Shown one piece after another: positions 1-61,281 of a DNA stretch of 64,000 bases (its first letter is position 1; each line of letters starts with the position of its first letter). Source of the stretch: Phytophthora sp. 'mugwort' (Eukaryota; Oomycota; Peronosporomycetes; Peronosporales; Peronosporaceae). The stretch lies in NCBI GenBank assembly GCA_033558025.1, contig JAUCEF010000012.1, positions 2,914,001 through 2,978,000 on the forward strand. The letters are read 5' to 3'. The translations under genes and the position numbers were made by a program. Under the pieces are notes generated by a model. The model saw only the letters and a list, made by a program, of their open reading frames with translations. It was not told the origin of the DNA and made no database searches.

Positions 1-3000
1 AAACCACAACATTGACACTCAGGCTCCCTGAAACCCTCGCGACTGGGACTAGAGAAAGCGACACCTTTGTAGGCACCCCCACGCCAGAGCCTAAACGCGT
101 TGAAACAGACGATAGAAGCTGTCCAGTGATCCCGCTTGCAGTCAACCACGTCTCACTCACGTTGCTTGCGGTGAAGACAACACCCGCTTCCGCTTCCTGG
201 CTGTAGTTCCCTGCTCCTGTCCAGTTACGGTCCGCCACTTCGGCAAGATAACCCGACGGGTAGAACGCTTCAACACGATAGTATAGCTCTGCCTTCGTCG
301 GCGTAACCGTGACATCACCCAAGAACACGCCATCCTCGCTGATCGACGTGCTCGCCATCACAACAGACAGTACAGGCTGCTCCGCCACCGTCAGGAACTC
401 GAGCGTCACAGGGATCATCGTCCTATTCCAGCTGCTGAAGGCATGCACAGAGGCGCGGAGCCATGCTTCCACACGACCCCAATGCTGCGGTCCTGCTGAG
501 ATAGACACGGATCTCGACTCAACTGACAACGGAACGACCGAGTAGACCGTGCTGTTCAGCGTCTCGCTCCCACTGGACAGTACCGTTGCGCCGTTCTCAC
601 TGACAGCCACGTTGCAGCCCTCGGGCAACAGCACTTCCAGAGAAAGCATCACGTCTGGAGCCGTCGCATCCAGCTCCGCCACCACTAACTCCGAGATCCA
701 CAGCACGCCCGGCTCGTCCTCGTACACCCTCGAACTCGTGCTAGCAAGCGTGAACGTAGGCGCTTGGGCGTGGTTCCACTGCACTGGCACCAGGCTTTCG
801 GAGATGGACGACGACAAGACCGTCAGCCACGCATACTCCTCGCCAGTATTGGTAGTGCTCTTAGCCTCACTTGCATCCATCTGCGACGGAATCAAACTAC
901 TCGTTACTGAAACAGACTGCAACGTTAGCGGCAGGCTGCCCGCGTAGTCTGGAGGAGGCAAGACGGTCAAGGTGCTGTTCATGCTCGTGCTCCCGTCTTC
1001 TTCATCCACTACCCAGACAATCTCCTGTTCCCACGGCGCATCATCGACTCTCGAGAGACTGTATCTCCAGAACGGCGACTCTCGCGCAGCCACCCCGGCG
1101 TCTGTGTTGCTATCCGCATTAACGAGGAACGACACCAGCTCCGCATCCACACTAGACGTCGTGCTTGCCTTGTCGCTTTCATGCACGATCACGTCCAGCA
1201 AGCGGTTAAAGCCCATGTGCACCATCGCCGACCCGTTCGGCGCAGAAGAGAAGAAGCGAGCAGATGCGACCGGAACCACCGAGACGCGCACGTTCGCCCT
1301 CAGGATAAACGACTGGTTCGACGTCCCCGAGTACGCGTCCACCGACAACGCCACGGCAGCTTCGCCAAAGTAGCCGTCTCCTGGAACCACACTCACGTTC
1401 TCCGATGTACTAAACTCAAACAAACGATCAGCAGCAAACGCGAGGGATGTGAACCCGGCACCGACGAAAGGAGACGCATCGAGTCCCCGACCATCGACAA
1501 ACACAGCTTCGACCCGACCGGCATCCCACACCAATCGACACGAACCGAAGCTCAGATCACTCACACCCGCCGCCACAACATCTGCCAGCAAGCTCTCTCG
1601 AACACTGCTCAGCGCTATCGCCACTGCGGTGTCTTCCTGTCCATCCACCCAGACATCGAGTGGACGAGCATAGTACACACTGGGCTCCAGCGACCAACCC
1701 ACCTCAGCCGTCGTCACCGCAGATGCCACCGTGGCGTTCGTCCCGGACGCGCCCATCAAATAGAGCTCGCGAGATGTCGCTGTGAGAGAGATGCTGAACC
1801 TGTCGGCGAACAGCGCGTCCAGCGCAACCAGCATCACCTCGGCATCGACGATGCCCACCAACGTTGGCGTCGGTACTGGCAGTGCATACCGCGAAGTCGT
1901 ATCGTTCTCGCTTGCTGAGACTGTAGGCAGCAGTAGTTGGTCGTTGAAGAATACGGCCACCACATCCGACCCGACGTCCGTCGACAACTCGACCGAGAGT
2001 TCCTCCGACCCATCCACGTCCTGGAGCGAGATAGAACCGATTGACACCACAATTACCATTCCCATTGGGGGTGTCGCCTCCGCAATGCTGACATCCAGCA
2101 GTGGCGTATCGGCTACGGGGGCGATGATAATATCGATGGGAATGGGCCACGCGCGCGCCACGGCCAGACCAACACGGTCGTTCGAGGTCAGATAGCCAGA
2201 AACGATGGACATACTCAAGAGATTCAGGTGCAGTTCTCCGCTATATCCCGGTACCAGCCCGATCTCCACACTGCCACGCATCTCCACTCGACCCGCTTCG
2301 GCCGCCACGATGCGCTGCGACGGATCGCTGAACGCCATCGCTGGCACCACACCGTCCGCCATTGTCGAGAACGCCACCGCTGACACATCGGATCTCCACG
2401 TGATGGAAGTCACGTAGTGTTCGTATTCACGCAGCTCCACCACCAAGAACAAAGCCTCCAACCCATCTGTATCTACCAGCGACGCCACCACCGAGTCGCA
2501 AACCACCACGCCGTCTTCTTCGGCTGCGAACGTCGTCGTCGCGATGGATACCAGAGGCGTCGTCGCCTCCGCGACCACTGCCACAGTCAGAGGCACTTCG
2601 TACATGTCTTCCGAGACCAGCCCGCCGCTATGGTCAATAGCGTGGGCAACAAACGTGCAGTCAATGAACCCCGAGAAGTACGTCGGTGGGCTCAATTGCA
2701 CGCTCAAGTCGGTGTGCTCTCCGCGCCGATATACACCGAGCGGGACCAACTCGAACACCGTCATGAACACAATGCCGGCCTCCTCGATTGACGACGTGTT
2801 GCTAGTATTTGCCTCTCTCACGACTTGTACCGGCATGTCGTTGACGGATACCTCTTTCCAAGCATTATTCTCGCAGCGAAGGTGCAGGTACATTTCCTCA
2901 GAGCCATCAATATCACTGATCGTCCAGTTGCTCACCGTAATAGAAGCGACGCCATTCTCTGGAATCGGAAGCTTGGCTGGAGTGACTACTAGTCTTGGCG

Positions 3001-6000
3001 CCTCGGCCACCGGATAAATTGTTAGCTCGATTGATTCAGACACCGTCGCCAGCGATTTCCACAGCCCGGAAGGAAGGCAGTCTAATGCGTCTTCACCCCC
3101 GCCGGACACACTCAGATAGCAATCAGACGCGAAAAAGGCCGGGTCCACATCCACACTGAAGGCTGAAACCACAACATTGACACTCAGGCTCCCTGAAACC
3201 CTCGCGACTGGGACTAGAGAAAGCGACACCTTTGTAGGCACCCCCACGCCAGAGCCTAAACGCGTTGAAACAGACGATAGAAGCTGTCCAGTGATCCCGC
3301 TTGCAGTCAACCACGTCTCACTCACGTTGCTTGCGGTGAAGACAACACCCGCTTCCGCTTCCTGGCTGTAGTTCCCTGCTCCTGTCCAGTTACGGTCCGC
3401 CACTTCGGCAAGATAACCCGACGGGTAGAACGCTTCAACACGATAGTATAGCTCTGCCTTCGTCGGCGTAACCGTGACATCACCCAAGAACACGCCATCC
3501 TCGCTGATCGACGTGCTCGCCATCACAACAGACAGTACAGGCTGCTCCGCCACCGTCAGGAACTCGAGCGTCACAGGGATCATCGTCCTATTCCAGCTGC
3601 TGAAGGCATGCACAGAGGCGCGGAGCCATGCTTCCACACGACCCCAATGCTGCGGTCCTGCTGAGATAAACACGGATCTCGACTCAACTGACAACGGAAC
3701 GACCGAGTAGACCGTGCTGTTCAGCGTCTCGCTCCCACTGGACAGTACCGTTGCGCCGTTCTCACTGACAGCCACGTTGCAGCCCTCGGGCAACAGCACT
3801 TCCAGAGAAAGCATCACGTCTGGAGCCGTCGCATCCAGCTCCGCCACCACTAACTCCGAGATCCACAGCACGCCCGGCTCGTCCTCGTACACCCTCGAAC
3901 TCGTGCTAGCAAGCGTGAACGTAGGCGCTTGGGCGTGGTTCCACTGCACTGGCACCAGGCTTTCGGAGATGGACGACGACAAGACCGTCAGCCACGCATA
4001 CTCCTCGCCAGTATTGGTAGTGCTCTTAGCCTCACTTGCATCCATCTGCGACGGAATCAAACTACTCGTTACTGAAACAGACTGCAACGTTAGCGGCAGG
4101 CTGCCCGCGTAGTCTGGAGGAGGCAAGACGGTCAAGGTGCTGTTCATGCTCGTGCTCCCGTCTTCTTCATCCAGTACCCAGACAATCTCCTGTTCCCACG
4201 GCGCATCATCGACTCTCGAGAGACTGTATCTCCAGAACGGCGACTCTCGCGCAGCCACCCCGGCGTCTGTGTTGCTATCCGCATTAACGAGGAACGACAC
4301 CAGCTCCGCATCCACACTAGACGTCGTGCTTGCCTTGTCGCTTTCATGCACGATCACGTCCAGCAAGCGGTTAAAGCCCATGTGCACCATCGCCGACCCG
4401 TTCGGCGCAGAAGAGAAGAAGCGAGCAGATGCGACCGGAACCACCGAGACGCGCACGTTCGCCCTCAGGATAAACGACTGGTTCGACGTCCCCGAGTACG
4501 CGTCCACCGACAACGCCACGGCAGCTTCGCCAAAGTAGCCGTCTCCTGGAACCACACTCACGTTCTCCGATGTACTAAACTCAAACAAACGATCAGCAGC
4601 AAACGCGAGGGATGTGAACCCGGCACCGACGAAAGGAGACGCATCGAGTCCCCGACCATCGACAAACACAGCTTCGACCCGACCGGCATCCCACACCAAT
4701 CGACACGAACCGAAGCTCAGATCACTCACACCCGCCGCCACAACATCTGCCAGCAAGCTCTCTCGAACACTGCTCAGCGCTATCGCCACTGCGGTGTCTT
4801 CCTGTCCATCCACCCAGACATCGAGTGGACGAGCATAGTACACACTGGGCTCCAGCGACCAACCCACCTCAGCCGTCGTCACCGCAGATGCCACCGTGGC
4901 GTTCGTCCCGGACGCGCCCATCAAATAGAGCTCGCGAGATGTCGCTGTGAGAGAGATGCTGAACCTGTCGGCGAACAGCGCGTCCAGCGCAACCAGCATC
5001 ACCTCGGCATCGACGATGCCCACCAACGTTGGCGTCGGTACTGGCAGTGCATACCGCGAAGTCGTATCGTTCTCGCTTGCTGAAACTGTAGGCAGCAGTA
5101 GTTGGTCGTTGAAGAATACGGCCATCACATCCGACCCGACGTCCGTCGACAACTCGACCGAGAGTTCCTCCGACCCATCCACGTCCTGGAGCGAGATAGA
5201 ACCGATTGACACCACAATTACCATTCCCATTGGGGGTGTCGCCTCCGCAATGCTGACATCCAGCAGTGGCGTATCGGCTACGGGGGCGATGATAATATCG
5301 ATGGGAATGGGCCACGCGCGCGCCACGGCCAGACCAACACGGTCGTTCGAGGTCAGATAGCCAGAAACGATGGACATACTCAAGAGATTCAGGTGCAGTT
5401 CTCCGCTATATCCCGGTACCAGCCCGATCTCCACACTGCCACGCATCTCCACTCGACCCGCTTCGGCCGCCACGATGCGCTGCGACGGATCGCTGAACGC
5501 CATCGCTGGCACCACACCGTCCGCCATTGTCGAGAACGCCACCGCTGACACATCGGATCTCCACGTGATGGAAGTCACGTAGTGTTCGTATTCACGCAGC
5601 TCCACCACCAAGAACAAAGCCTCCAACCCATCTGTATCTACCAGCGACGCCACCACCGAGTCGCAAACCACCACGCCGTCTTCTTCGGCTGCGAACGTCG
5701 TCGTCGCGATGGATACCAGAGGCGTCGTCGCCTCCGCGACCACTGCCACAGTCAGAGGCACTTCGTACATGTCTTCCGAGACCAGCCCGCCGCTATGGTC
5801 AATAGCGTGGGCAACAAACGTGCAGTCAATGAACCCCGAGAAGTACGTCGGTGGGCTCAATTGCACGCTCAAGTCGGTGTGCTCTCCGCGCCGATATACA
5901 CCGAGCGGGACCAACTCGAACACCGTCATGAACACAATGCCGGCCTCCTCGATTGACGACGTGTTGCTAGTATTTGCCTCTCTCACGACTTGTACCGGCA

Positions 6001-9000
6001 TGTCGTTGACGGATACCTCTTTCCAAGCATTATTCTCGCAGCGAAGGTGCAGGTACATTTCCTCAGAGCCATCAATATCACTGATCGTCCAGTTGCTCAC
6101 CGTAATAGAAGCGACGCCATTCTCTGGAATCGGAAGCTTGGCTGGAGTGACTACTAGTCTTGGCGCCTCGGCCACCGGATAAATTGTTAGCTCGATTGAT
6201 TCAGACACCGTCGCCAGCGATTTCCACAGCCCGGAAGGAAGGCAGTCTAATGCGTCTTCACCCCCGCCGGACACACTCAGATAGCAATCAGACGCGAAAA
6301 AGGCCGGGTCCACATCCACACTGAAGGCTGAAACCACAACATTGACACTCAGGCTCCCTGAAACCCTCGCGACTGGGACTAGAGAAAGCGACACCTTTGT
6401 AGGCACCCCCACGCCAGAGCCTAAACGCGTTGAAACAGACGATAGAAGCTGTCCAGTGATCCCGCTTGCAGTCAACCACGTCTCACTCACGTTGCTTGCG
6501 GTGAAGACAACACCCGCTTCCGCTTCCTGGCTGTAGTTCCCTGCTCCTGTCCAGTTACGGTCCGCCACTTCGGCAAGATAACCCGACGGGTAGAACGCTT
6601 CAACACGATAGTATAGCTCTGCCTTCGTCGGCGTAACCGTGACATCACCCAAGAACACGCCATCCTCGCTGATCGACGTGCTCGCCATCACAACAGACAG
6701 TACAGGCTGCTCCGCCACCGTCAGGAACTCGAGCGTCACAGGGATCATCGTCCTATTCCAGCTGCTGAAGGCATGCACAGAGGCGCGGAGCCATGCTTCC
6801 ACACGACCCCAATGCTGCGGTCCTGCTGAGATAAACACGGATCTCGACTCAACTGACAACGGAACGACCGAGTAGACCGTGCTGTTCAGCGTCTCGCTCC
6901 CACTGGACAGTACCGTTGCGCCGTTCTCACTGACAGCCACGTTGCAGCCCTCGGGCAACAGCACTTCCAGAGAAAGCATCACGTCTGGAGCCGTCGCATC
7001 CAGCTCCGCCACCACTAACTCCGAGATCCACAGCACGCCCGGCTCGTCCTCGTACACCCTCGAACTCGTGCTAGCAAGCGTGAACGTAGGCGCTTGGGCG
7101 TGGTTCCACTGCACTGGCACCAGGCTTTCGGAGATGGACGACGACAAGACCGTCAGCCACGCATACTCCTCGCCAGTATTGGTAGTGCTCTTAGCCTCAC
7201 TTGCATCCATCTGCGACGGAATCAAACTACTCGTTACTGAAACAGACTGCAACGTTAGCGGCAGGCTGCCCGCGTAGTCTGGAGGAGGCAAGACGGTCAA
7301 GGTGCTGTTCATGCTCGTGCTCCCGTCTTCTTCATCCAGTACCCAGACAATCTCCTGTTCCCACGGCGCATCATCGACTCTCGAGAGACTGTATCTCCAG
7401 AACGGCGACTCTCGCGCAGCCACCCCGGCGTCTGTGTTGCTATCCGCATTAACGAGGAACGACACCAGCTCCGCATCCACACTAGACGTCGTGCTTGCCT
7501 TGTCGCTTTCATGCACGATCACGTCCAGCAAGCGGTTAAAGCCCATGTGCACCATCGCCGACCCGTTCGGCGCAGAAGAGAAGAAGCGAGCAGATGCGAC
7601 CGGAACCACCGAGACGCGCACGTTCGCCCTCAGGATAAACGACTGGTTCGACGTCCCCGAGTACGCGTCCACCGACAACGCCACGGCAGCTTCGCCAAAG
7701 TAGCCGTCTCCTGGAACCACACTCACGTTCTCCGATGTACTAAACTCAAACAAACGATCAGCAGCAAACGCGAGGGATGTGAACCCGGCACCGACGAAAG
7801 GAGACGCATCGAGTCCCCGACCATCGACAAACACAGCTTCGACCCGACCGGCATCCCACACCAATCGACACGAACCGAAGCTCAGATCACTCACACCCGC
7901 CGCCACAACATCTGCCAGCAAGCTCTCTCGAACACTGCTCAGCGCTATCGCCACTGCGGTGTCTTCCTGTCCATCCACCCAGACATCGAGTGGACGAGCA
8001 TAGTACACACTGGGCTCCAGCGACCAACCCACCTCAGCCGTCGTCACCGCAGATGCCACCGTGGCGTTCGTCCCGGACGCGCCCATCAAATAGAGCTCGC
8101 GAGATGTCGCTGTGAGAGAGATGCTGAACCTGTCGGCGAACAGCGCGTCCAGCGCAACCAGCATCACCTCGGCATCGACGATGCCCACCAACGTTGGCGT
8201 CGGTACTGGCAGTGCATACCGCGAAGTCGTATCGTTCTCGCTTGCTGAAACTGTAGGCAGCAGTAGTTGGTCGTTGAAGAATACGGCCACCACATCCGAC
8301 CCGACGTCCGTCGACAACTCGACCGAGAGTTCTTCCGACCCATCCACGTCCTGGAGCGAGATAGAACCGATTGACACCACAATTACCATTCCCATTGGGG
8401 GTGTCGCCTCCGCAATGCTGACATCCAGCAGTGGCGTATCGGCTACGGGGGCGATGATAATATCGATGGGAATGGGCCACGCGCGCGCCACGGCCAGACC
8501 AACACGGTCGTTCGAGGTCAGATAGCCAGAAACGATGGACATACTCAAGAGATTCAGGTGCAGTTCTCCGCTATATCCCGGTACCAGCCCGATCTCCACA
8601 CTGCCACGCATCTCCACTCGACCCGCTTCGGCCGCCACGATGCGCTGCGACGGATCGCTGAACGCCATCGCTGGCACCACACCGTCCGCCATTGTCGAGA
8701 ACGCCACCGCTGACACGTCGGATCTCCACGTGACGAAAGTCGCGTAGTGTTCGTATGCACCCAGCTCCACCACCAAGAACAAAGCCTCCGACCCATCTGC
8801 ATCAACCAGCGACGCCACCACCGAGTCGCAAACCACCACGCCGTCTTCTTCGGCTGCGAACGTCGTCGTCGCGATGGATACCAGAGGCGTCGTCGCCTCC
8901 GCGACCACTGCCACAGTCAGAGGCACTTCGTACATGTCTTCCGAGACCAGCACGCCGCTATGGTCAATAGCGTGGGCAACAAACGTGCAGTCAATGAACC

Positions 9001-24000: not shown

Positions 24001-27000
24001 CGACGATGCCCACCAACGTTGGCGTCGGTACTGGCAGTGCATACCGCGAAGTCGTATCGTTCTCGCTTGCTGAAACTGTAGGCAGCAGTAGTTGGTCGTT
24101 GAAGAATACGGCCACCACATCCGACCCGACGTCCGTCGACAACTCGACCGAGAGTTCCTCCGACCCATCCACGTCCTGGAGCGAGATAGAACCGATTGAC
24201 ACCACAATTACCATTCCCATTGGGGGTGTCGCCTCCGCAATGCTGACATCCAGCAGTGGCGTATCGGCTACGGGGGCGATGATAATATCGATGGGAATGG
24301 GCCACGCGCGCGCCACGGCCAGACCAACACGGTCGTTCGAGGTCAGATAGCCAGAAACGATGGACATACTCAAGAGATTCAGGTGCAGTTCTCCGCTATA
24401 TCCCGGTACCAGCCCGATCTCCACACTGCCACGCATCTCCACTCGACCCGCTTCGGCCGCCACGATGCGCTGCGACGGATCGCTGAACGCCATCGCTGGC
24501 ACCACACCGTCCGCCATTGTCGAGAACGCCACCGCTGACACATCGGATCTCCACGTGATGGAAGTCACGTAGTGTTCGTATTCACGCAGCTCCACCACCA
24601 AGAACAAAGCCTCCAACCCATCTGTATCTACCAGCGACGCCACCACCGAGTCGCAAACCACCACGCCGTCTTCTTCGGCTGCGAACGTCGTCGTCGCGAT
24701 GGATACCAGAGGCGTCGTCGCCTCCGCGACCACTGCCACACTCAGAGGCACTTCGTACATGTCTTCCGAGACCAGCACGCCGCTATGGTCAATAGCGTGG
24801 GCAACAAACGTGCAGTCAATGAACCCCGAGAAGTACGTCGGTGGGCTCAATTGCACGCTCAAGTCGGTGTGCTCTCCGCGCCGATATACACCGAGCGGGA
24901 CCAACTCGAACACCGTCATGAACACAATGCCGGCCTCCTCGATTGACGACGTGTTGCTAGTATTTGCCTCTCTCACGACTTGTACCGGCATGTCGTTGAC
25001 GGATACCTCTTTCCAAGCATTATTCTCGCAGCGAAGGTGCAGGTACATTTCCTCAGAGCCATCAATATCACTGATCGTCCAGTTGCTCAACGTAATAGAA
25101 GCGACGCCATTCTCTGGAATCGGAAGCTTGGCTGGAGTGACTACTAGTCTTGGCGCCTCGGCCACCGGATAAATTGTTAGCTCGATTGATTCAGACACCG
25201 TCGCCAGCGATTTCCACAGCCCGGAAGGAAGGCAGTCCAATGCGTCTTCACCCCCGCCGGACACACTCAGATAGCAATCAGACGCGAAAAAGGCCGGGTC
25301 CACATCCACACTGAAGGCTGAAACCACAACATTGACACTCAGGCTCCCTGAAACCCTCGCGACTGGGACTAGAGAAAGCGACACCTTTGTAGGCACCCCC
25401 ACGCCAGAGCCTAAACGCGTTGAAACAGACGATAGAAGCTGTCCAGTGATCCCGCTTGCAGTCAACCACGTCTCACTCACGTTGCTTGCGGTGAAGACAA
25501 CACCCGCTTCCGCTTCCTGGCTGTAGTTCCCTGCTCCTGTCCAGTTACGGTCCGCCACTTCGGCAAGATAACCCGACGGGTAGAACGCTTCAACACGATA
25601 GTATAGCTCTGCCTTCGTCGGCGTAACCGTGACATCACCCAAGAACACGCCATCCTCGCTGATCGACGTGCTCGCCATCACAACAGACAGTACAGGCTGC
25701 TCCGCCACCGTCAGGAACTCGAGCGTCACAGGGATCAACGTCCTATTCCAGCTGCTGAAGGCATGCACAGAGGCGCGGAGCCATGCTTCCACACGACCCC
25801 AATGCTGCGGTCCTGCTGAGATAAACACGGATCTCGACTCAACTGACAACGGAACGACCGAGTAGACCGTGCTGTTCAGCGTCTCGCTCCCACTGGACAG
25901 TACCGTTGCGCCGTTCTCACTGACAGCCACGTTGCAGCCCTCGGGCAACAGCACTTCCAGAGAAAGCATCACGTCTGGAGCCGTCGCATCCAGCTCCGCC
26001 ACCACTAACTCCGAGATCCACAGCACGCCCGGCTCGTCCTCGTACACCCTCGAACTCGTGCTAGCAAGCGTGAACGTAGGCGCTTGGGCGTGGTTCCACT
26101 GCACTGGCACCAGGCTTTCGGAGATGGACGACGACAAGACCGTCAGCCACGCATACTCCTCGCCAGTATTGGTAGTGCTCTTAGCCTCACTTGCATCCAT
26201 CTGCGACGGAATCAAACTACTCGTTACTGAAACAGACTGCAACGTTAGCGGCAGGCTGCCCGCGTAGTCTGGAGGAGGCAAGACGGTCAAGGTGCTGTTC
26301 ATGCTCGTGCTCCCGTCTTCTTCATCCACTACCCAGACAATCTCCTGTTCCCACGGCGCATCATCGACTCTCGAGAGACTGTATCTCCAGAACGGCGACT
26401 CTCGCGCAGCCACCCCGGCGTCTGTGTTGCTATCCGCATTAACGAGGAACGACACCAGCTCCGCATCCACACTAGACGTCGTGCTTGCCTTGTCGCTTTC
26501 ATGCACGATCACGTCCAGCAAGCGGTTAAAGCCCATGTGCACCATCGCCGACCCGTTCGGCGCAGAAGAGAAGAAGCGAGCAGATGCGACCGGAACCACC
26601 GAGACGCGCACGTTCGCCCTCAGGATAAACGACTGGTTCGACGTCCCCGAGTACGCGTCCACCGACAACGCCACGGCAGCTTCGCCAAAGTAGCCGTCTC
26701 CTGGAACCACACTCACGTTCTCCGATGTACTAAACTCAAACAAACGATCAGCAGCAAACGCGAGGGATGTGAACCCGGCACCGACGAAAGGAGACGCATC
26801 GAGTCCCCGACCATCGACAAACACAGCTTCGACCCGACCGGCATCCCACACCAATCGACACGAACCGAAGCTCAGATCACTCACACCCGCCGCCACAACA
26901 TCTGCCAGCAAGCTCTCTCGAACACTGCTCAGCGCTATCGCCACTGCGGTGTCTTCCTGTCCATCCACCCAGACATCGAGTGGACGAGCATAGTACACAC

Positions 27001-30000
27001 TGGGCTCCAGCGACCAACCCACCTCAGCCGTCGTCACCGCAGATGCCACCGTGGCGTTCGTCCCGGACGCGCCCATCAAATAGAGCTCGCGAGATGTCGC
27101 TGTGAGAGAGATGCTGAACCTGTCGGCGAACAGCGCGTCCAGCGCAACCAGCATCACCTCGGCATCGACGATGCCCACCAACGTTGGCGTCGGTACTGGC
27201 AGTGCATACCGCGAAGTCGTATCGTTCTCGCTTGCTGAAACTGTAGGCAGCAGTAGTTGGTCGTTGAAGAATACGGCCACCACATCCGACCCGACGTCCG
27301 TCGACAACTCGACCGAGAGTTCCTCCGACCCATCCACGTCCTGGAGCGAGATAGAACCGATTGACACCACAATTACCATTCCCATTGGGGGTGTCGCCTC
27401 CGCAATGCTGACATCCAGCAGTGGTGTATCGGCTACGGGGGCGATGATAATATCGATGGGAATGGGCCACGCGCGCGCCACGGCCAGACCAACACGGTCG
27501 TTTGAGGTCAGATAGCCAGAAACGATGGACATACTCAAGAGATTCAGGTGCAGTTCTCCGCTATATCCCGGTACCAGCCCGATCTCCACACTGCCACGCA
27601 TCTCCACTCGACCCGCTTCGGCCGCCACGATGCGCTGCGACGGATCGCTGAACGCCATCGCTGGCACCACACCGTCCGCCATTGTCGAGAACGCCACCGC
27701 TGACACGTCGGATCTCCACGTGACGAAAGTCGCGTACTGTTCGTATTCACCCAGCTCCACCACCAAGAACAAAGCCTCCAACCCATCTGTATCTACCAGC
27801 GACGCCACCACCGAGTCGCAAACCACCACGCCGTCTTCTTTGGCTGCGAACGTCGTCGTCGCGATCGATACCAGAGGCGTCGTCGCCTCCGCGACCACTG
27901 CCACAGTCAGAGGCACTTCGTACGTGTCTTCCGAGACCAGCCCGCCGCTATGGTCAATAGCGTGGGCAACAAACGTGCAGTCAATGAACCCCGAGAAGTA
28001 CGTCGGTGGGCTCAATTGCACGCTCAAGTCGGTGTGCTCTCCGCGCCGATATACACCGAGCGGGACCAACTCGAACACCGTCATGAACACAATGCCGGCC
28101 TCCTCGATTGACGACGTGTTGCTAGTATTTGCCTCTCTCACGACTTGTACCGGCATGTCGTTGACGGATACCTCTTTCCAAGCATTATTCTCGCAGCGAA
28201 GGTGCAGAGACATTTCCTCAGAGCCATCAATATCACTGATCGTCCAGTTGCTCAACGTAATAGAAGCGACGCCATTCTCTGGAATCGGAAGCTTGGCTGG
28301 AGTGACTACTAGTCTTGGCGCCTCGGCCACCGGATAAATTGTTAGCTCGATTGATTCAGACACCGTCGCCAGCGATTTCCACAGCCCGGAAGGAAGGCAG
28401 TCCAATGCGTCTTCACCCCCGCCGGACACACTCAGATAGCAATCAGACGCGAAAAAGGCCGGGTCCACATCCACACTGAAGGCTGAAACCACAACATTGA
28501 CACTCAGGCTCCCTGAAACCCTCGCGACTGGGACTAGAGAAAGCGACACCTTTGTAGGCACCCCCACGCCAGAGCCTAAACGCGTTGAAACAGACGATAG
28601 AAGCTGTCCAGTGATCCCGCTTGCAGTCAACCACGTCTCACTCACGTTGCTTGCGGTGAAGACAACACCCGCTTCCGCTTCCTGGCTGTAGTTCCCTGCT
28701 CCTGTCCAGTTACGGTCCGCCACTTCGGCAAGATAACCCGACGGGTAGAACGCTTCAACACGATAGTATAGCTCTGCCTTCGTCGGCGTAACCGTGACAT
28801 CACCCAAGAACACGCCATCCTCGCTGATCGACGTGCTCGCCATCACAACAGACAGTACAGGCTGCTCCGCCACCGTCAGGAACTCGAGCGTCACAGGGAT
28901 CATCGTCCTATTCCAGCTGCTGAAGGCATGCACAGAGGCGCGGAGCCATGCTTCCACACGACCCCAATGCTGCGGTCCTGCTGAGATAAACACGGATCTC
29001 GACTCAACTGACAACGGAACGACCGAGTAGACCGTGCTGTTCAGCGTCTCGCTCCCACTGGACAGTACCGTTGCGCCGTTCTCACTGACAGCCACGTTGC
29101 AGCCCTCGGGCAACAGCACTTCCAGAGAAAGCATCACGTCTGGAGCCGTCGCATCCAGCTCCGCCACCACTAACTCCGAGATCCACAGCACGCCCGGCTC
29201 GTCCTCGTACACCCTCGAACTCGTGCTAGCAAGCGTGAACGTAGGCGCTTGGGCGTGGTTCCACTGCACTGGCACCAGGCTTTCGGAGATGGACGACGAC
29301 AAGACCGTCAGCCACGCATACTCCTCGCCAGTATTGGTAGTGCTCTTAGCCTCACTTGCATCCATCTGCGACGGAATCAAACTACTCGTTACTGAAACAG
29401 ACTGCAACGTTAGCGGCAGGCTGCCCGCGTAGTCTGGAGGAGGCAAGACGGTCAAGGTGCTGTTCATGCTCGTGCTCCCGTCTTCTTCATCCACTACCCA
29501 GACAATCTCCTGTTCCCACGGCGCATCATCGACTCTCGAGAGACTGTATCTCCAGAACGGCGACTCTCGCGCAGCCACCCCGGCGTCTGTGTTGCTATCC
29601 GCATTAACGAGGAACGACACCAGCTCCGCATCCACACTAGACGTCGTGCTTGCCTTGTCGCTTTCATGCACGATCACGTCCAGCAAGCGGTTAAAGCCCA
29701 TGTGCACCATCGCCGACCCGTTCGGCGCAGAAGAGAAGAAGCGAGCAGATGCGACCGGAACCACCGAGACGCGCACGTTCGCCCTCAGGATAAACCACTG
29801 GTTCGACGTCCCCGAGTACGCGTCCACCGACAACGCCACGGCAGCTTCGCCAAAGTAGCCGTCTCCTGGAACCACACTCACGTTCTCCGATGTAATAAAC
29901 TCAAACAAACGATCAGCAGCAAACGCGAGGGATGTGAACCCGGCACCGACGAAAGGAGACGCATCGAGTCCCCGACCATCGACAAACACAGCTTCGACCC

Positions 30001-31531
30001 GACCGGCATCCCACACCAATCGACACGAACCGAAGCTCAGATCACTCACACCCGCCGCCACAACATCTGCCAGCAAGCTCTCTCGAACACTGCTCAGCGC
30101 TATCGCCACTGCGGTGTCTTCCTGTCCATCCACCCAGACATCGAGTGGACGAGCATAGTACACACTGGGCTCCAGCGACCAACCCACCTCAGCCGTCGTC
30201 ACCGCAGATGCCACCGTGGCGTTCGTCCCGGACGCGCCCATCAAATAGAGCTCGCGAGATGTCGCTGTGAGAGAGATGCTGAACCTGTCGGCGAACAGCG
30301 CGTCCAGCGCAACCAGCATCACCTCGGCATCGACGATGCCCACCAACGTTGGCGTCGGTACTGGCAGTGCATACCGCGAAGTCGTATCGTTCTCGCTTGC
30401 TGAAACTGTAGGCAGCAGTAGTTGGTCGTTGAAGAATACGGCCACCACATCCGACCCGACGTCCGTCGACAACTCGACCGAGAGTTTCTCCGACCCATCC
30501 ACGTCCTGGAGCGAGATAGAACCGATTGACACCACAATTACCATTCCCATTGGGGGTGTCGCCTCCGCAATGCTGACATCCAGCAGTGGTGTATCGGCTA
30601 CGGGGGCGATGATAATATCGATGGGAATGGGCCACGCGCGCGCCACGGCCAGACCAACACGGTCGTTTGAGGTCAGATAGCCAGAAACGATGGACATACT
30701 CAAGAGATTCAGGTGCAGTTCTCCGCTATATCCCGGTACCAGCCCGATCTCCACACTGCCACGCATCTCCACTCGACCCGCTTCGGCCGCCACGATGCGC
30801 TGCGACGGATCGCTGAACGCCATCGCTGGCACCACACCGTCCGCCATTGTCGAGAACGCCACCGCTGACACATCGGATCTCCACGTGATGGAAGTCACGT
30901 AGTGTTCGTATTCACCCAGCTCCACCACCAAGAACAAAGCCTCCAACCCATCTGTATCTACCAGCGACGCCACCACCGAGTCGCAAACCACCACGCCGTC
31001 TTCTTCGGCTGCGAACGTCGTCGTCGCAATCGATACCAGTGGCGTCGTCGCCTCCGCAACTACTGCCACAGTCAGAGGCACTTCGTACGTGTCTTCCGAG
31101 ACCAGCCCGCCGCTATGGTCAATAGCTTGGGCAACAAACGTGCAGTCAATGAACCCCGAGAAGTACGTCGGTGGGCTCAATTGCACGCTCAAGTCGGTGT
31201 GCTCTCCGGGCCAGTATACACCGAGCGGGAGCAGCTCAAACACTGTCATGGACACAATGCCGGCCTCCTCGATTGACGACGTGTTGCTAGTATTTGCCTC
31301 TCTCACGACTTGTACCGGCATGTCGTTGACGGATACCTCTTTCCAAGCATTATTCTCGCAGCGAAGGTGCAGAGACATTTCCTCAGAGCCATCAATATCA
31401 CTGATCGTCCAGTTGCTCACCGTAATGGCAGCGACGCCATTTTCTGGAATCGTAAGCTGGTCTGGAGTCACTACGAGTCTTGGCGCCTCGGCCACCGGAT
31501 AAATTGTTAGTTCGATTGATTCAGACACCAT
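1..31531 (-). CDS. Giant tandem-repeat protein, adhesin-like modules (3' partial, start uncertain)
   Basis: One minus-strand frame is open from 31609 to the left window edge; the first ATG is at 31531, giving 10,510 full codons without a stop. It consists of a 1055-residue unit repeated ten times in frame. Each unit holds about seven modules of roughly 150 residues. Five show an acidic E-D/N-G type motif (PENGVA, EEDGVVV, QEDTAVA, YEDEPGV, SEDGVFL) and three have DIDGSEE, DTDGLEA or DVDGSEE. The pattern V-A-D-x-P-x-L, then E-D-G, then D-x-D-G-S-E is known from cadherin-like/VCBS-type beta-sandwich repeats of giant bacterial adhesins, where such acidic clusters often bind calcium. N-glycosylation sequons (NWT, NVS, NYS, NQS) are frequent. 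Third codon positions are GC-rich as in PRP19. I infer a secreted or vesicle-stored protein. An in-frame TAG lies at 31610-31612 and no signal peptide is visible upstream, so an upstream exon or a decapitated gene are both possible. Confidence 0.72.
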   Translation of the reverse strand, partial: MVSESIELTIYPVAEAPRLVVTPDQLTIPENGVAAITVSNWTISDIDGSEEMSLHLRCENNAWKEVSVNDMPVQVVREANTSNTSSIEEAGIVSMTVFELLPLGVYWPGEHTDLSVQLSPPTYFSGFIDCTFVAQAIDHSGGLVSEDTYEVPLTVAVVAEATTPLVSIATTTFAAEEDGVVVCDSVVASLVDTDGLEALFLVVELGEYEHYVTSITWRSDVSAVAFSTMADGVVPAMAFSDPSQRIVAAEAGRVEMRGSVEIGLVPGYSGELHLNLLSMSIVSGYLTSNDRVGLAVARAWPIPIDIIIAPVADTPLLDVSIAEATPPMGMVIVVSIGSISLQDVDGSEKLSVELSTDVGSDVVAVFFNDQLLLPTVSASENDTTSRYALPVPTPTLVGIVDAEVMLVALDALFADRFSISLTATSRELYLMGASGTNATVASAVTTAEVGWSLEPSVYYARPLDVWVDGQEDTAVAIALSSVRESLLADVVAAGVSDLSFGSCRLVWDAGRVEAVFVDGRGLDASPFVGAGFTSLAFAADRLFEFITSENVSVVPGDGYFGEAAVALSVDAYSGTSNQWFILRANVRVSVVPVASARFFSSAPNGSAMVHMGFNRLLDVIVHESDKASTTSSVDAELVSFLVNADSNTDAGVAARESPFWRYSLSRVDDAPWEQEIVWVVDEEDGSTSMNSTLTVLPPPDYAGSLPLTLQSVSVTSSLIPSQMDASEAKSTTNTGEEYAWLTVLSSSISESLVPVQWNHAQAPTFTLASTSSRVYEDEPGVLWISELVVAELDATAPDVMLSLEVLLPEGCNVAVSENGATVLSSGSETLNSTVYSVVPLSVESRSVFISAGPQHWGRVEAWLRASVHAFSSWNRTMIPVTLEFLTVAEQPVLSVVMASTSISEDGVFLGDVTVTPTKAELYYRVEAFYPSGYLAEVADRNWTGAGNYSQEAEAGVVFTASNVSETWLTASGITGQLLSSVSTRLGSGVGVPTKVSLSLVPVARVSGSLSVNVVVSAFSVDVDPAFFASDCYLSVSGGGEDALDCLPSGLWKSLATVSESIELTIYPVAEAPRLVVTPAKLPIPENGVASITLSNWTISDIDGSEEMSLHLRCENNAWKEVSVNDMPVQVVREANTSNTSSIEEAGIVFMTVFELVPLGVYRRGEHTDLSVQLSPPTYFSGFIDCTFVAHAIDHSGGLVSEDTYEVPLTVAVVAEATTPLVSIATTTFAAKEDGVVVCDSVVASLVDTDGLEALFLVVELGEYEQYATFVTWRSDVSAVAFSTMADGVVPAMAFSDPSQRIVAAEAGRVEMRGSVEIGLVPGYSGELHLNLLSMSIVSGYLTSNDRVGLAVARAWPIPIDIIIAPVADTPLLDVSIAEATPPMGMVIVVSIGSISLQDVDGSEELSVELSTDVGSDVVAVFFNDQLLLPTVSASENDTTSRYALPVPTPTLVGIVDAEVMLVALDALFADRFSISLTATSRELYLMGASGTNATVASAVTTAEVGWSLEPSVYYARPLDVWVDGQEDTAVAIALSSVRESLLADVVAAGVSDLSFGSCRLVWDAGRVEAVFVDGRGLDASPFVGAGFTSLAFAADRLFEFSTSENVSVVPGDGYFGEAAVALSVDAYSGTSNQSFILRANVRVSVVPVASARFFSSAPNGSAMVHMGFNRLLDVIVHESDKASTTSSVDAELVSFLVNADSNTDAGVAARESPFWRYSLSRVDDAPWEQEIVWVVDEEDGSTSMNSTLTVLPPPDYAGSLPLTLQSVSVTSSLIPSQMDASEAKSTTNTGEEYAWLTVLSSSISESLVPVQWNHAQAPTFTLASTSSRVYEDEPGVLWISELVVAELDATAPDVMLSLEVLLPEGCNVAVSENGATVLSSGSETLNSTVYSVVPLSVESRSVFISAGPQHWGRVEAWLRASVHAFSSWNRTLIPVTLEFLTVAEQPVLSVVMASTSISEDGVFLGDVTVTPTKAELYYRVEAFYPSGYLAEVADRNWTGAGNYSQEAEAGVVFTASNVSETWLTASGITGQLLSSVSTRLGSGVGVPTKVSLSLVPVARVSGSLSVNVVVSAFSVDVDPAFFASDCYLSVSGGGEDALDCLPSGLWKSLATVSESIELTIYPVAEAPRLVVTPAKLPIPENGVASITLSNWTISDIDGSEEMYLHLRCENNAWKEVSVNDMPVQVVREANTSNTSSIEEAGIVFMTVFELVPLGVYRRGEHTDLSVQLSPPTYFSGFIDCTFVAHAIDHSGVLVSEDMYEVPLSVAVVAEATTPLVSIATTTFAAEEDGVVVCDSVVASLVDTDGLEALFLVVELREYEHYVTSITWRSDVSAVAFSTMADGVVPAMAFSDPSQRIVAAEAGRVEMRGSVEIGLVPGYSGELHLNLLSMSIVSGYLTSNDRVGLAVARAWPIPIDIIIAPVADTPLLDVSIAEATPPMGMVIVVSIGSISLQDVDGSEELSVELSTDVGSDVVAVFFNDQLLLPTVSASENDTTSRYALPVPTPTLVGIVDAEVMLVALDVLFADRFSISLTATSRELYLMGASGTNATVASAVTTAEVGWSLEPSVYYARPLDVWVDGQEDTAVAIALSSVRESLLADVVAAGVSDLSFGSCRLVWDAGRVEAVFVDGRGLDASPFVGAGFTSLAFAADRLFEFSTSENVSVVPGDGYFGEAAVALSVDAYSGTSNQSFILRANVRVSVVPVASARFFSSAPNGSAMVHMGFNRLLDVIVHESDKASTTSSVDAELVSFLVNADSNTDAGVAARESPFWRYSLSRVDDAPWEQEIVWVVDEEDGSTSMNSTLTVLPPPDYAGSLPLTLQSVSVTSSLIPSQMDASEAKSTTNTGEEYAWLTVLSSSISESLVPVQWNHAQAPTFTLASTSSRVYEDEPGVLWISELVVAELDATAPDVMLSLEVLLPEGCNVAVSENGATVLSSGSETLNSTVYSVVPLSVESRSVFISAGPQHWGRVEAWLRASVHAFSSWNRTMIPVTLEFLTVAEQPVLSVVMASTSISEDGVFLGDVTVTPTKAELYYRVEAFYPSGYLAEVADRNWTGAGNYSQEAEAGVVFTASNVSETWLTASGITGQLLSSVSTRLGSGVGVPTKVSLSLVPVARVSGSLSVNVVVSAFSVDVDPAFFASDCYLSVSGGGEDALDCLPSGLWKSLATVSESIELTIYPVAEAPRLVVTPAKLPIPENGVASITVSNWTISDIDGSEEMSLHLRCENNAWKEVSVNDMPVQVVREANTSNTSSIEEAGIVFMTVFELVPLGVYRRGEHTDLSVQLSPPTYFSGFIDCTFVAHAIDHSGGLVSEDMYEVPLTVAVVAEATTPLVSIATTTFAAEEDGVVVCDSVVASLVDTDGLEALFLVVELGEYEHYVTSITWRSDVSAVAFSTMADGVVPAMAFSDPSQRIVAAEAGRVEMRGSVEIGLVPGYSGELHLNLLSMSIVSGYLTSNDRVGLAVARAWPIPIDIIIAPVADTPLLDVSIAEATPPMGMVIVVSIGSISLQDVDGSEELSVELSTDVGSDVVAVFFNDQLLLPTVSASENDTTSRYALPVPTPTLVGIVDAEVMLVALDALFADRFSISLTATSRELYLMGASGTNATVASAVTTAEVGWSLEPSVYYARPLDVWVDGQEDTAVAIALSSVRESLLADVVAAGVSDLSFGSCRLVWDAGRVEAVFVDGRGLDASPFVGAGFTSLAFAADRLFEFSTSENVSVVPGDGYFGEAAVALSVDAYSGTSNQSFILRANVRVSVVPVASARFFSSAPNGSAMVHMGFNRLLDVIVHESDKASTTSSVDAELVSFLVNADSNTDAGVAARESPFWRYSLSRVDDAPWEQEIVWVVDEEDGSTSMNSTLTVLPPPDYAGSLPLTLQSVSVTSSLIPSQMDASEAKSTTNTGEEYAWLTVLSSSISESLVPVQWNHAQAPTFTLASTSSRVYEDEPGVLWISELVVAELDATAPDVMLSLEVLLPEGCNVAVSENGATVLSSGSETLNSTVYSVVPLSVESRSVFISAGPQHWGRVEAWLRASVHAFSSWNRTLIPVTLEFLTVAEQPVLSVVMASTSISEDGVFLGDVTVTPTKAELYYRVEAFYPSGYLAEVADRNWTGAGNYSQEAEAGVVFTASNVSETWLTASGITGQLLSSVSTRLGSGVGVPTKVSLSLVPVARVSGSLSVNVVVSAFSVDVDPAFFASDCYLSVSGGGEDALDCLPSGLWKSLATVSESIELTIYPVAEAPRLVVTPAKLPIPENGVASITLSNWTISDIDGSEEMYLHLRCENNAWKEVSVNDMPVQVVREANTSNTSSIEEAGIVFMTVFELVPLGVYRRGEHTDLSVQLSPPTYFSGFIDCTFVAHAIDHSGVLVSEDMYEVPLTVAVVAEATTPLVSIATTTFAAEEDGVVVCDSVVASLVDTDGLEALFLVVELREYEHYVTSITWRSDVSAVAFSTMADGVVPAMAFSDPSQRIVAAEAGRVEMRGSVEIGLVPGYSGELHLNLLSMSIVSGYLTSNDRVGLAVARAWPIPIDIIIAPVADTPLLDVSIAEATPPMGMVIVVSIGSISLQDVDGSEELSVELSTDVGSDVVAVFFNDQLLLPTVSASENDTTSRYALPVPTPTLVGIVDAEVMLVALDALFADRFSISLTATSRELYLMGASGTNATVASAVTTAEVGWSLEPSVYYARPLDVWVDGQEDTAVAIALSSVRESLLADVVAAGVSDLSFGSCRLVWDAGRVEAVFVDGRGLDASPFVGAGFTSLAFAADRLFEFSTSENVSVVPGDGYFGEAAVALSVDAYSGTSNQSFILRANVRVSVVPVASARFFSSAPNGSAMVHMGFNRLLDVIVHESDKASTTSSVDAELVSFLVNADSNTDAGVAARESPFWRYSLSRVDDAPWEQEIVWVVDEEDGSTSMNSTLTVLPPPDYAGSLPLTLQSVSVTSSLIPSQMDASEAKSTTNTGEEYAWLTVLSSSISESLVPVQWNHAQAPTFTLASTSSRVYEDELGVLWISELVVAELDATAPDVMLSLEVLLPEGCNVAVSENGATVLSSGSETLNSTVYSVVPLSVESRSVFISAGPQHWGRVEAWLRASVHAFSSWNRTLIPVTLEFLTVAEQPVLSVVMASTSISEDGVFLGDVTVTPTKAELYYRVEVFYPSGYLAEVADRNWTGAGNYSQEAEAGVVFTASNVSETWLTASGITGQLLSSVSTRLGSGVGVPTKVSLSLVPVARVSGSLSVNVVVSAFSVDVDPAFFASDCYLSVSGGGEDALDCLPSGLWKSLATVSESIELTIYPVAEAPRLVVTPAKLPIPENGVASITVSNWTISDIDGSEEMSLHLRCENNAWKEVSVNDMPVQVVREANTSNTSSIEEAGIVFMTVFELVPLGVYRRGEHTDLSVQLSPPTYFSGFIDCTFVAHAIDHSGGLVSEDMYEVPLTVAVVAEATTPLVSIATTTFAAEEDGVVVCDSVVASLVDTDGLEALFLVVELGEYEHYVTSITWRSDVSAVAFSTMADGVVPAMAFSDPSQRIVAAEAGRVEMRGSVEIGLVPGYSGELHLNLLSMSIVSGYLTSNDRVGLAVARAWPIPIDIIIAPVADTPLLDVSIAEATPPMGMVIVVSIGSISLQDVDGSEELSVELSTDVGSDVVAVFFNDQLLLPTVSASENDTTSRYALPVPTPTLVGIVDAEVMLVALDALFADRFSISLTATSRELYLMGASGTNATVASAVTTAEVGWSLEPSVYYARPLDVWVDGQEDTAVAIALSSVRESLLADVVAAGVSDLSFGSCRLVWDAGRVEAVFVDGRGLDASPFVGAGFTSLAFAADRLFEFSTSENVSVVPGDGYFGEAAVALSVDAYSGTSNQSFILRANVRVSVVPVASARFFSSAPNGSAMVHMGFNRLLDVIVHESDKASTTSSVDAELVSFLVNADSNTDAGVAARESPFWRYSLSRVDDAPWEQEIVWVLDEEDGSTSMNSTLTVLPPPDYAGSLPLTLQSVSVTSSLIPSQMDASEAKSTTNTGEEYAWLTVLSSSISESLVPVQWNHAQAPTFTLASTSSRVYEDEPGVLWISELVVAELDATAPDVMLSLEVLLPEGCNVAVSENGATVLSSGSETLNSTVYSVVLLSVESRSVFISAGPQHWGRVEAWLRASVHAFSSWNRTMIPVTLEFLTVAEQPVLSVVMASTSISEDGVFLGDVTVTPTKAELYYRVEAFYPSGYLAEVADRNWTGAGNYSQEAEAGVVFTASNVSETWLTASGITGQLLSSVSTRLGSGVGVPTKVSLSLVPVARVSGSLSVNVVVSAFSVDVDPAFFASDCYLSVSGGGEDALDCLPSGLWKSLATVSESIELTIYPVAEAPRLVVTPAKLPIPENGVASITVSNWTISDIDGSEEMYLHLRCENNAWKEVSVNDMPVQVVREANTSNTSSIEEAGIVFMTVFELVPLGVYRRGEHTDLSVQLSPPTYFSGFIDCTFVAHAIDHSGGLVSEDMYEVPLTVAVVAEATTPLVSIATTTFAAEEDGVVVCDSVVASLVDADGSEALFLVVELGAYEHYATFVTWRSDVSAVAFSTMADGVVPAMAFSDPSQRIVAAEAGRVEMRGSVEIGLVPGYSGELHLNLLSMSIVSGYLTSNDRVGLAVARAWPIPIDIIIAPVADTPLLDVSIAEATPPMGMVIVVSIGSISLQDVDGSEELSVELSTDVGSDVVAVFFNDQLLLPTVSASENDTTSRYALPVPTPTLVGIVDAEVMLVALDALFADRFSISLTATSRELYLMGASGTNATVASAVTTAEVGWSLEPSVYYARPLDVWVDGQEDTAVAIALSSVRESLLADVVAAGVSDLSFGSCRLVWDAGRVEAVFVDGRGLDASPFVGAGFTSLAFAADRLFEFSTSENVSVVPGDGYFGEAAVALSVDAYSGTSNQSFILRANVRVSVVPVASARFFSSAPNGSAMVHMGFNRLLDVIVHESDKASTTSSVDAELVSFLVNADSNTDAGVAARESPFWRYSLSRVDDAPWEQEIVWVLDEEDGSTSMNSTLTVLPPPDYAGSLPLTLQSVSVTSSLIPSQMDASEAKSTTNTGEEYAWLTVLSSSISESLVPVQWNHAQAPTFTLASTSSRVYEDEPGVLWISELVVAELDATAPDVMLSLEVLLPEGCNVAVSENGATVLSSGSETLNSTVYSVVPLSVESRSVFISAGPQHWGRVEAWLRASVHAFSSWNRTMIPVTLEFLTVAEQPVLSVVMASTSISEDGVFLGDVTVTPTKAELYYRVEAFYPSGYLAEVADRNWTGAGNYSQEAEAGVVFTASNVSETWLTASGITGQLLSSVSTRLGSGVGVPTKVSLSLVPVARVSGSLSVNVVVSAFSVDVDPAFFASDCYLSVSGGGEDALDCLPSGLWKSLATVSESIELTIYPVAEAPRLVVTPAKLPIPENGVASITVSNWTISDIDGSEEMYLHLRCENNAWKEVSVNDMPVQVVREANTSNTSSIEEAGIVFMTVFELVPLGVYRRGEHTDLSVQLSPPTYFSGFIDCTFVAHAIDHSGVLVSEDMYEVPLTVAVVAEATTPLVSIATTTFAAEEDGVVVCDSVVASLVDADGSEALFLVVELGAYEHYATFVTWRSDVSAVAFSTMADGVVPAMAFSDPSQRIVAAEAGRVEMRGSVEIGLVPGYSGELHLNLLSMSIVSGYLTSNDRVGLAVARAWPIPIDIIIAPVADTPLLDVSIAEATPPMGMVIVVSIGSISLQDVDGSEELSVELSTDVGSDVVAVFFNDQLLLPTVSASENDTTSRYALPVPTPTLVGIVDAEVMLVALDALFADRFSISLTATSRELYLMGASGTNATVASAVTTAEVGWSLEPSVYYARPLDVWVDGQEDTAVAIALSSVRESLLADVVAAGVSDLSFGSCRLVWDAGRVEAVFVDGRGLDASPFVGAGFTSLAFAADRLFEFSTSENVSVVPGDGYFGEAAVALSVDAYSGTSNQSFILRANVRVSVVPVASARFFSSAPNGSAMVHMGFNRLLDVIVHESDKASTTSSVDAELVSFLVNADSNTDAGVAARESPFWRYSLSRVDDAPWEQEIVWVLDEEDGSTSMNSTLTVLPPPDYAGSLPLTLQSVSVTSSLIPSQMDASEAKSTTNTGEEYAWLTVLSSSISESLVPVQWNHAQAPTFTLASTSSRVYEDEPGVLWISELVVAELDATAPDVMLSLEVLLPEGCNVAVSENGATVLSSGSETLNSTVYSVVPLSVESRSVFISAGPQHWGRVEAWLRASVHAFSSWNRTMIPVTLEFLTVAEQPVLSVVMASTSISEDGVFLGDVTVTPTKAELYYRVEAFYPSGYLAEVADRNWTGAGNYSQEAEAGVVFTASNVSETWLTASGITGQLLSSVSTRLGSGVGVPTKVSLSLVPVARVSGSLSVNVVVSAFSVDVDPAFFASDCYLSVSGGGEDALDCLPSGLWKSLATVSESIELTIYPVAEAPRLVVTPAKLPIPENGVASITVSNWTISDIDGSEEMYLHLRCENNAWKEVSVNDMPVQVVREANTSNTSSIEEAGIVFMTVFELVPLGVYRRGEHTDLSVQLSPPTYFSGFIDCTFVAHAIDHSGGLVSEDMYEVPLTVAVVAEATTPLVSIATTTFAAEEDGVVVCDSVVASLVDTDGLEALFLVVELREYEHYVTSITWRSDVSAVAFSTMADGVVPAMAFSDPSQRIVAAEAGRVEMRGSVEIGLVPGYSGELHLNLLSMSIVSGYLTSNDRVGLAVARAWPIPIDIIIAPVADTPLLDVSIAEATPPMGMVIVVSIGSISLQDVDGSEELSVELSTDVGSDVMAVFFNDQLLLPTVSASENDTTSRYALPVPTPTLVGIVDAEVMLVALDALFADRFSISLTATSRELYLMGASGTNATVASAVTTAEVGWSLEPSVYYARPLDVWVDGQEDTAVAIALSSVRESLLADVVAAGVSDLSFGSCRLVWDAGRVEAVFVDGRGLDASPFVGAGFTSLAFAADRLFEFSTSENVSVVPGDGYFGEAAVALSVDAYSGTSNQSFILRANVRVSVVPVASARFFSSAPNGSAMVHMGFNRLLDVIVHESDKASTTSSVDAELVSFLVNADSNTDAGVAARESPFWRYSLSRVDDAPWEQEIVWVLDEEDGSTSMNSTLTVLPPPDYAGSLPLTLQSVSVTSSLIPSQMDASEAKSTTNTGEEYAWLTVLSSSISESLVPVQWNHAQAPTFTLASTSSRVYEDEPGVLWISELVVAELDATAPDVMLSLEVLLPEGCNVAVSENGATVLSSGSETLNSTVYSVVPLSVESRSVFISAGPQHWGRVEAWLRASVHAFSSWNRTMIPVTLEFLTVAEQPVLSVVMASTSISEDGVFLGDVTVTPTKAELYYRVEAFYPSGYLAEVADRNWTGAGNYSQEAEAGVVFTASNVSETWLTASGITGQLLSSVSTRLGSGVGVPTKVSLSLVPVARVSGSLSVNVVVSAFSVDVDPAFFASDCYLSVSGGGEDALDCLPSGLWKSLATVSESIELTIYPVAEAPRLVVTPAKLPIPENGVASITVSNWTISDIDGSEEMYLHLRCENNAWKEVSVNDMPVQVVREANTSNTSSIEEAGIVFMTVFELVPLGVYRRGEHTDLSVQLSPPTYFSGFIDCTFVAHAIDHSGGLVSEDMYEVPLTVAVVAEATTPLVSIATTTFAAEEDGVVVCDSVVASLVDTDGLEALFLVVELREYEHYVTSITWRSDVSAVAFSTMADGVVPAMAFSDPSQRIVAAEAGRVEMRGSVEIGLVPGYSGELHLNLLSMSIVSGYLTSNDRVGLAVARAWPIPIDIIIAPVADTPLLDVSIAEATPPMGMVIVVSIGSISLQDVDGSEELSVELSTDVGSDVVAVFFNDQLLLPTVSASENDTTSRYALPVPTPTLVGIVDAEVMLVALDALFADRFSISLTATSRELYLMGASGTNATVASAVTTAEVGWSLEPSVYYARPLDVWVDGQEDTAVAIALSSVRESLLADVVAAGVSDLSFGSCRLVWDAGRVEAVFVDGRGLDASPFVGAGFTSLAFAADRLFEFSTSENVSVVPGDGYFGEAAVALSVDAYSGTSNQSFILRANVRVSVVPVASARFFSSAPNGSAMVHMGFNRLLDVIVHESDKASTTSSVDAELVSFLVNADSNTDAGVAARESPFWRYSLSRVDDAPWEQEIVWVVDEEDGSTSMNSTLTVLPPPDYAGSLPLTLQSVSVTSSLIPSQMDASEAKSTTNTGEEYAWLTVLSSSISESLVPVQWNHAQAPTFTLASTSSRVYEDEPGVLWISELVVAELDATAPDVMLSLEVLLPEGCNVAVSENGATVLSSGSETLNSTVYSVVPLSVESRSVSISAGPQHWGRVEAWLRASVHAFSSWNRTMIPVTLEFLTVAEQPVLSVVMASTSISEDGVFLGDVTVTPTKAELYYRVEAFYPSGYLAEVADRNWTGAGNYSQEAEAGVVFTASNVSETWLTASGITGQLLSSVSTRLGSGVGVPTKVSLSLVPVARVSGSLSVNVVV

Positions 31532-61232: not shown

Positions 61233-61281
61233 GCCTCGGCAAGCACAACCGACTGAGTTCCAACATACATACACCACAACA

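Follow-up and report, generated by a model that had tools for sequence, protein, structure and literature searches.

A tandem array of 1,055-residue units in a giant reading frame of Phytophthora sp. 'mugwort', with the tail of a predicted REJ-GAIN receptor

The 64,000-nucleotide stretch of Phytophthora sp. 'mugwort' DNA analysed here (the window; contig C12, 2914001-2978000, in a genome of 86.26 Mb and 154 contigs against which the DNA searches were run) begins within a single minus-strand reading frame that stays open for 10,536 codons, from position 31609 to the left edge at position 1, with no stop and with TAG as the next codon upstream. A preliminary description of this DNA had recognised an open minus-strand frame of more than 10,500 codons; the count bears this out, with the start moved from 31531 to 31609. 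When 40 kb of left flank was added and the frame was followed to its end, an extension that the same description had proposed, a TAA stop was reached at contig C12 2885730-2885732, some 28.3 kb beyond the window's left edge. The whole frame runs from 2945609 down to 2885733 on the contig and comprises 19,959 codons, TAG being immediately upstream. Its first methionine is residue 27, within the first partial unit of the array, and the 19,933 residues from there have a predicted mass of 2.11 MDa, so that the mass above 1 MDa foreseen for an intact product holds for a frame that has proved nearly twice as long. GC content at codon positions 1, 2 and 3 is 0.594, 0.473 and 0.671, and the GC-rich third positions reported before are recovered in the last of these values.

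The frame consists of a tandem array followed by a unique tail. Within the window, 26,789 neighbouring pairs of repeated 20-mers are spaced at 3165 bp, the period expected of the unit of 3165 bp, or 1055 codons, that had been proposed. The repeats are in frame, as had also been stated; their number was given as ten and becomes about 15.3 units in the whole frame. Sixteen copies start in register: 12 have 1,055 residues, one has 1,034 and two have 1,024, and the sixteenth is cut short at about 345. The last 3,835 residues of the frame are unique. Copies 1-9 are complete in the window and copy 10 is not (Table 1), and three of the 12 complete 1,055-codon copies lie wholly or partly to the left of it. 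Each unit also carries a plus-strand open stretch of 329 codons (window 929-1915 and then every 3165 bp, ten in the window). These stretches are probably incidental, and a gene on the opposite strand was rejected because the homology sits on the minus frame.

Table 1. Features of the reading frame and its upstream flank, in window positions
Feature	Position	Strand	Remark
Open frame, part in window	1..31609	-	codons 1-10,536; frame reading
Upstream flank	31610..32609	.	single copy by genome DNA search; without homologue of relatives' N-terminus
Frame start, truncated end of a unit	31505..31609	-	35 codons; precedes copy 1
Unit copy 1	28340..31504	-	of the complete 1,055-codon copies the one that differs most, 29-44 nt from the other 11
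Unit copies 2-9	3020..28339	-	3165 bp each; register of repeats
Copy 2	25175-28339	-	
Copy 3	22010-25174	-	
Copy 4	18845-22009	-	
Copy 5	15680-18844	-	
Copy 6	12515-15679	-	
Copy 7	9350-12514	-	
Copy 8	6185-9349	-	
Copy 9	3020-6184	-	
Unit copy 10	1..3019	-	cut by window edge, 146 bp outside
Copies 11-16 and tail	left of window	-	flank sequence
Two-module stretch modelled as Ig-like beta-sandwiches	24290..25195	-	model, 302 residues, mean pLDDT 69.7

The tail is where the frame can be compared with other proteins over a long colinear region. Over about 2,700 residues it is 49-78% identical to 14 oomycete homologues, so that the frame belongs to a genuine gene, one member of a conserved family of predicted receptors. 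Pfam detects in the tail a REJ domain (PF02010, E 6.5e-66, residues 321-711 of the final 2,756) and a GPS (PF01825, E 2.1e-9); both are present in all nine family members scanned, and the H, L and T of the GPS cleavage motif are invariant in 15 of 15 aligned sequences. A profile of the family, compared with the PDB, matches ADGRF1 over the GPS (E 2.5e-5) and the zinc fingers of TRAF6 (E 0.0048). TRAF-like zinc fingers reach E 0.53 in the protein's own sequence, below the cut-off, and E <=1 in five of nine members, the best at 7.3e-5. A single-sequence PDB search with the part between GPS and membrane returned chance matches only (best E 2). Under a strict hydropathy cut three stretches follow the GPS (residues 18471-18498, 18605-18632 and 19154-19177); the same cut is also passed by four stretches of the ectodomain, which makes the membrane segments a weak prediction. 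Pfam scans that admitted tail matches up to E 1 found neither a PLAT domain, of which a diverged form may escape, nor a polycystin channel family, and Pfam gave no 7tm family. By its domains the frame is predicted to encode a protein resembling REJ-GAIN (GPS) membrane receptors, and many oomycetes have an orthologue of it.

For the repeated unit, domain libraries are less informative: Pfam gives no family at its cut-off, NCBIfam nothing above cut-off, and there is no Pfam match to thrombospondin, the repeat of the Vsv1 protein named as a precedent in the preliminary description. A predicted structure for two modules of the unit (Table 1) matches Ig-like beta-sandwiches in a fold search, and the unit is suggested to comprise seven Ig-like modules. 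Fold matches to integrin legs and bacterial pilins reflect the common Ig-like arrangement alone, and kinship with these proteins is not claimed. A model of the full canonical unit (1,106 residues) was poor, with a pLDDT of 44.5, and was set aside.

Relatives of the protein are spread across the oomycetes. Three protein searches gave at least 22, at least 5 and at least 6 matches; 16 of the 22 listed matches of the first bear an oomycete name. Among the relatives listed are P. infestans, P. ramorum, P. lilii, P. rubi, P. cactorum, P. nicotianae, P. capsici, P. oleae, P. citrophthora, Nothophytophthora, Globisporangium and Pythium, and three proteins (P0007, P0023 and P0025) align with the frame over 4,930-6,046 columns at 61-66% identity. 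Predicted oomycete proteins annotated as 'GPS family', 'GPS domain-containing' or 'Sperm receptor for egg jelly' (P. infestans P0005, P. lilii P0001, P. cactorum P0023 and P0025, P. citrophthora P0024) have REJ and GPS in common with the frame and a unit 46-60% identical to that of the array; they differ in their annotated lengths of 2,863-6,818 residues. The unit was found in 13 of 21 homologues scanned. Annotated relatives have one or two units each, with two in succession in P. rubi P0017 and P0028, P. cactorum P0023 and Nothophytophthora P0029, and short-read assemblies may hide longer arrays. Beyond the oomycetes, a bicosoecid protein aligns by profile comparison over 595 columns (E 7e-37), so that the REJ part and the region preceding it appear to be old in stramenopiles. 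Among the literature titles and abstracts listed, none deals with this oomycete protein; one listed study (PMC7399828) concerns oomycete polycystic-kidney-disease ryanodine-receptor proteins.

Tandem near-identical blocks recur in the family with different lengths, about 1,025 residues in P. rubi, 1,049 in Nothophytophthora, 1,057 in P. cactorum and 1,100 in P. citrophthora. The last of these, in P0024 (residues 755-3365 onward; 2,161 shared 10-mers at an offset of 1,100 residues), is a different block that covers the junction and also the beginning of the tail. In P. infestans P0031 it is N-terminal modules that recur, spaced 249-279 residues apart, and the gene model ends within the unit. 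A junction insert of about 22 residues distinguishes type A junctions, which bear the insert mark, from type B. Type A is found in copies 1-12 of the array, at the first junction of P. cactorum and partly in Nothophytophthora; type B is found at the last junctions of the array, in P. infestans, P. nicotianae, P. oleae, P. capsici, P. rubi and P. citrophthora, and at the last junction of P. cactorum. Position-by-position orthology of the junction modules is supported for type B (62% identity to the last P. cactorum junction, 55% to the first); for type A, at 61% and 61-62%, identity gives it no support, and the scheme was set aside.

The array is very probably the ectodomain-coding part of a conserved oomycete REJ-GAIN/GPS receptor gene in which a block of about 1,055 residues has been amplified to about 15.3 copies in this lineage. 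Unequal crossing-over together with gene conversion would have multiplied the block in tandem, and the ancestral 5' end of the gene would have been lost in this assembly or kept elsewhere.

A complicating issue is this 5' end, where the sequence turns unit-like at a sharp boundary, at TATCTGAGTG, nine bases past the in-frame TAG. The P. cactorum protein P0025 differs in having its own hydrophobic, signal-like start and some 1,000 further residues before its first unit, and this N-terminal region is common to P. lilii, P. rubi, P. infestans and Nothophytophthora, whose best alignments with P0025 show 44-68% likeness. When the N-terminus of five relatives was compared with 314 kb of the contig (2774001-3088000, extending 111.7 kb past the 3' end and 142.4 kb past the 5' end of the frame), nothing better than E 0.98 was found outside the array. 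Residues 1-450 of P0012 were also tried as the N-terminus and discarded, since their matches lie inside the array and tail. The abrupt 5' end and the absence of the N-terminus from the 314 kb together indicate that the gene would be either 5'-truncated or rearranged in this assembly.

One possible reading, to which slightly less than even weight is given, is that the frame is a 5'-truncated relic, in which a rearrangement, perhaps helped by a transposon, removed promoter, signal peptide and N-terminus, and in which the frame is still open through recency of the loss and homogenisation of the array. The start inside a unit and the missing N-terminus would fit such a history, as would the repeat elements upstream (window 37254-38799 and 41943-43860) and a ratio dN/dS between copies that is just moderately low, at 0.38-0.61 in nine of ten copy pairs (the tenth pair has one synonymous base difference). 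A relic would nevertheless have to retain 19,959 codons without stop or frameshift, the unique tail of 3,835 residues included. Furthermore, copy 1 is the most diverged, as expected of an edge that escapes homogenisation, so that the right-hand edge of the array is probably real and not very young; with 29-44 bases of divergence at the edge, the frame is still intact.

Alternatively, and more tentatively, the gene could be complete, with an upstream exon across an intron or a changed N-terminus, and its secreted product would then reach or exceed about 20,000 residues. A splice acceptor could be provided by the in-frame TAG that precedes the frame, and seven in-frame donor-acceptor combinations occur within 3 kb upstream, against a mean of 2.56 in shuffles. 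However, among these seven candidates for a signal-peptide exon, the score of the best hydrophobic start was equalled by 39 of 200 shuffles, and it was not accepted; nor does any upstream candidate resemble the N-terminus of the relatives.

Variation among the copies bears on whether the array is correctly assembled. The 12 complete 1,055-codon copies are all distinct in DNA, with 1-44 differences per pair and no length change, and copies 13-16 are mosaics in which a core 99-100% identical to other copies is joined to a junction of about 230 residues with only about 61-70% identity in DNA. These distinctions, the edge-specific sequence in copy 1 and in copies 13-16 and the single-copy upstream flank argue against an assembly error in copy number or at the right-hand edge, which is judged improbable, although the exact copy number is unsure because a single base separates copy 7 from copy 8 and copy 14 from copy 15, and two bases separate copy 11 from copy 12. 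Scarcely credible is a non-coding macrosatellite open in one frame by chance: near-identical kilobase tandem units are a habit of satellites, but the protein is conserved in relatives both in the unit and outside the array, 1 kb of the unit matches the genome in at least 15 places that, among the matches listed, are all at this one locus, and the five other frames are full of stops (45, 36, 21, 12 and 41 per unit).

How the copies have remained so alike is suggested by the distribution of their differences. The 60 variable sites among the 12 complete copies comprise 24 synonymous and 36 replacement changes (2,396 and 6,800 being possible), and, as had been noted earlier for the variable positions then found, none makes a stop. 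The open frame in all copies is weaker evidence of coding than it appears, since copies under homogenisation take over their openness from a single unit: of the 9,495 single changes possible in a unit 299 create a stop, and about two stops would be expected among 60 changes. Neighbouring copies are the most alike, with a mean of 12 differences, and the number rises the farther apart two copies lie. A maximum-likelihood tree was built from 23 unit cores, among them eight of the 15 complete copies of this array; in it, copies are grouped by species at 100/100 in all four multi-copy species (this array with eight copies, P. rubi with four rows, P. cactorum A with two and Nothophytophthora with two), and the closest relative of the array's cores is P. 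lilii (97/97). Given this grouping, homogenisation within species, or concerted evolution, is the simplest reading of the sequences.

Several known systems resemble the predicted receptor in part. In the polycystin-1/REJ/PKDREJ family of animals, REJ is followed by GPS and then by membrane segments, as here. That family, however, has a PLAT domain after the first membrane segment and a channel region of 11 membrane segments, for neither of which this tail has a Pfam counterpart, its strict-hydropathy segments numbering three; instead the protein has a long coiled stretch and weakly predicted zinc fingers of TRAF-like type, with Ig-like tandem units in front. Adhesion GPCRs, with their GAIN domain, have the GPS motif in common with it, as the ADGRF1 match illustrates, but the 7-transmembrane domain of that class has no counterpart here in the Pfam scans. 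Closer in lineage is the stramenopile Ectocarpus Esi0130_0068, described as a REJ/GPS protein of male gametes that crosses the membrane in 6 or 7 segments and likened here by that description, with an extracellular part of 976 residues (PMC4700764). The zoospore large-peripheral-vesicle glycoprotein PnLpv is, from its description, also a very large Phytophthora glycoprotein, exceeding 400 kDa by immunoblot, but it is stored in vesicles (PMC3869178). As far as tested, the tail points to kinship with REJ-GAIN receptors rather than with vesicle proteins.

If the array is the ectodomain of such a receptor, its units would form a long, glycosylated extracellular stalk, in keeping with the position of 235 of 240 N-x-S/T sequons before the GPS. 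By comparison with known GAIN proteins, the GAIN domain would cleave itself at the HLT site (HL/T) with the two parts remaining joined, and a pull or binding on the stalk could be relayed through the membrane segments to the cytoplasmic coiled-coil and zinc-finger part, giving force- or ligand-dependent signalling. The number of units would set the length of the stalk, which at more than 100 Ig-like modules of about 4 nm might reach some 0.4 micrometre if extended. That an intact receptor of 20,000 or more residues is made, with a reach that differs among individuals or species through the fast-changing count of this recombination-homogenised 1,055-residue block, is rather doubtful; to our knowledge, an intact product of about 20,000 residues would be the longest cell-surface receptor. 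That the protein serves adhesion or the recognition of mates can only be guessed by analogy with REJ relatives, those in other stramenopiles being described as candidate gamete-recognition proteins (PMC4700764).

The gene is real and very unusual; it belongs to a known kind, the REJ-GAIN receptors, and its ectodomain is extreme and specific to the lineage. If made intact, the product would be among the largest predicted proteins of eukaryotes, where PKZILLA proteins reach about 45,000 residues. The latter, giant enzymes of Prymnesium (named in PMC12300183), are eukaryotic giants too but modular enzymes, and no kinship is claimed. Unlike titin, it would be encoded, in array and tail, by one uninterrupted exon. 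The gene is one that annotation pipelines miss or split, and collapse of its array in short-read assemblies is likely. As the ectodomain has been re-amplified repeatedly, with blocks that differ among P. rubi, Nothophytophthora, P. cactorum and P. citrophthora, the family lends itself to testing whether unequal crossing-over tunes the length of a receptor on the surface of plant pathogens.

The remainder of the window holds repeats and further genes. An element of about 1.5 kb (window 37254-38799) has inverted terminal repeats of about 180-210 bp and, with 39 scored out of 835 candidates, more than 30 further genomic copies that are 90-95% identical; a second repeat element (41943-43860) occurs in at least three other places at 84-88% identity. 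By eye, window 45444-47021 (+) encodes a Prp19-like U-box/WD40 protein and 47374-48855 (-) an MNS1-like coiled-coil protein. Two proteins that resemble secreted endopolygalacturonases, also by eye, are encoded at 55958-57094 and 61231-62487 (+), and a third endopolygalacturonase-like piece, decayed-looking, lies on the opposite strand at 58487-58957.
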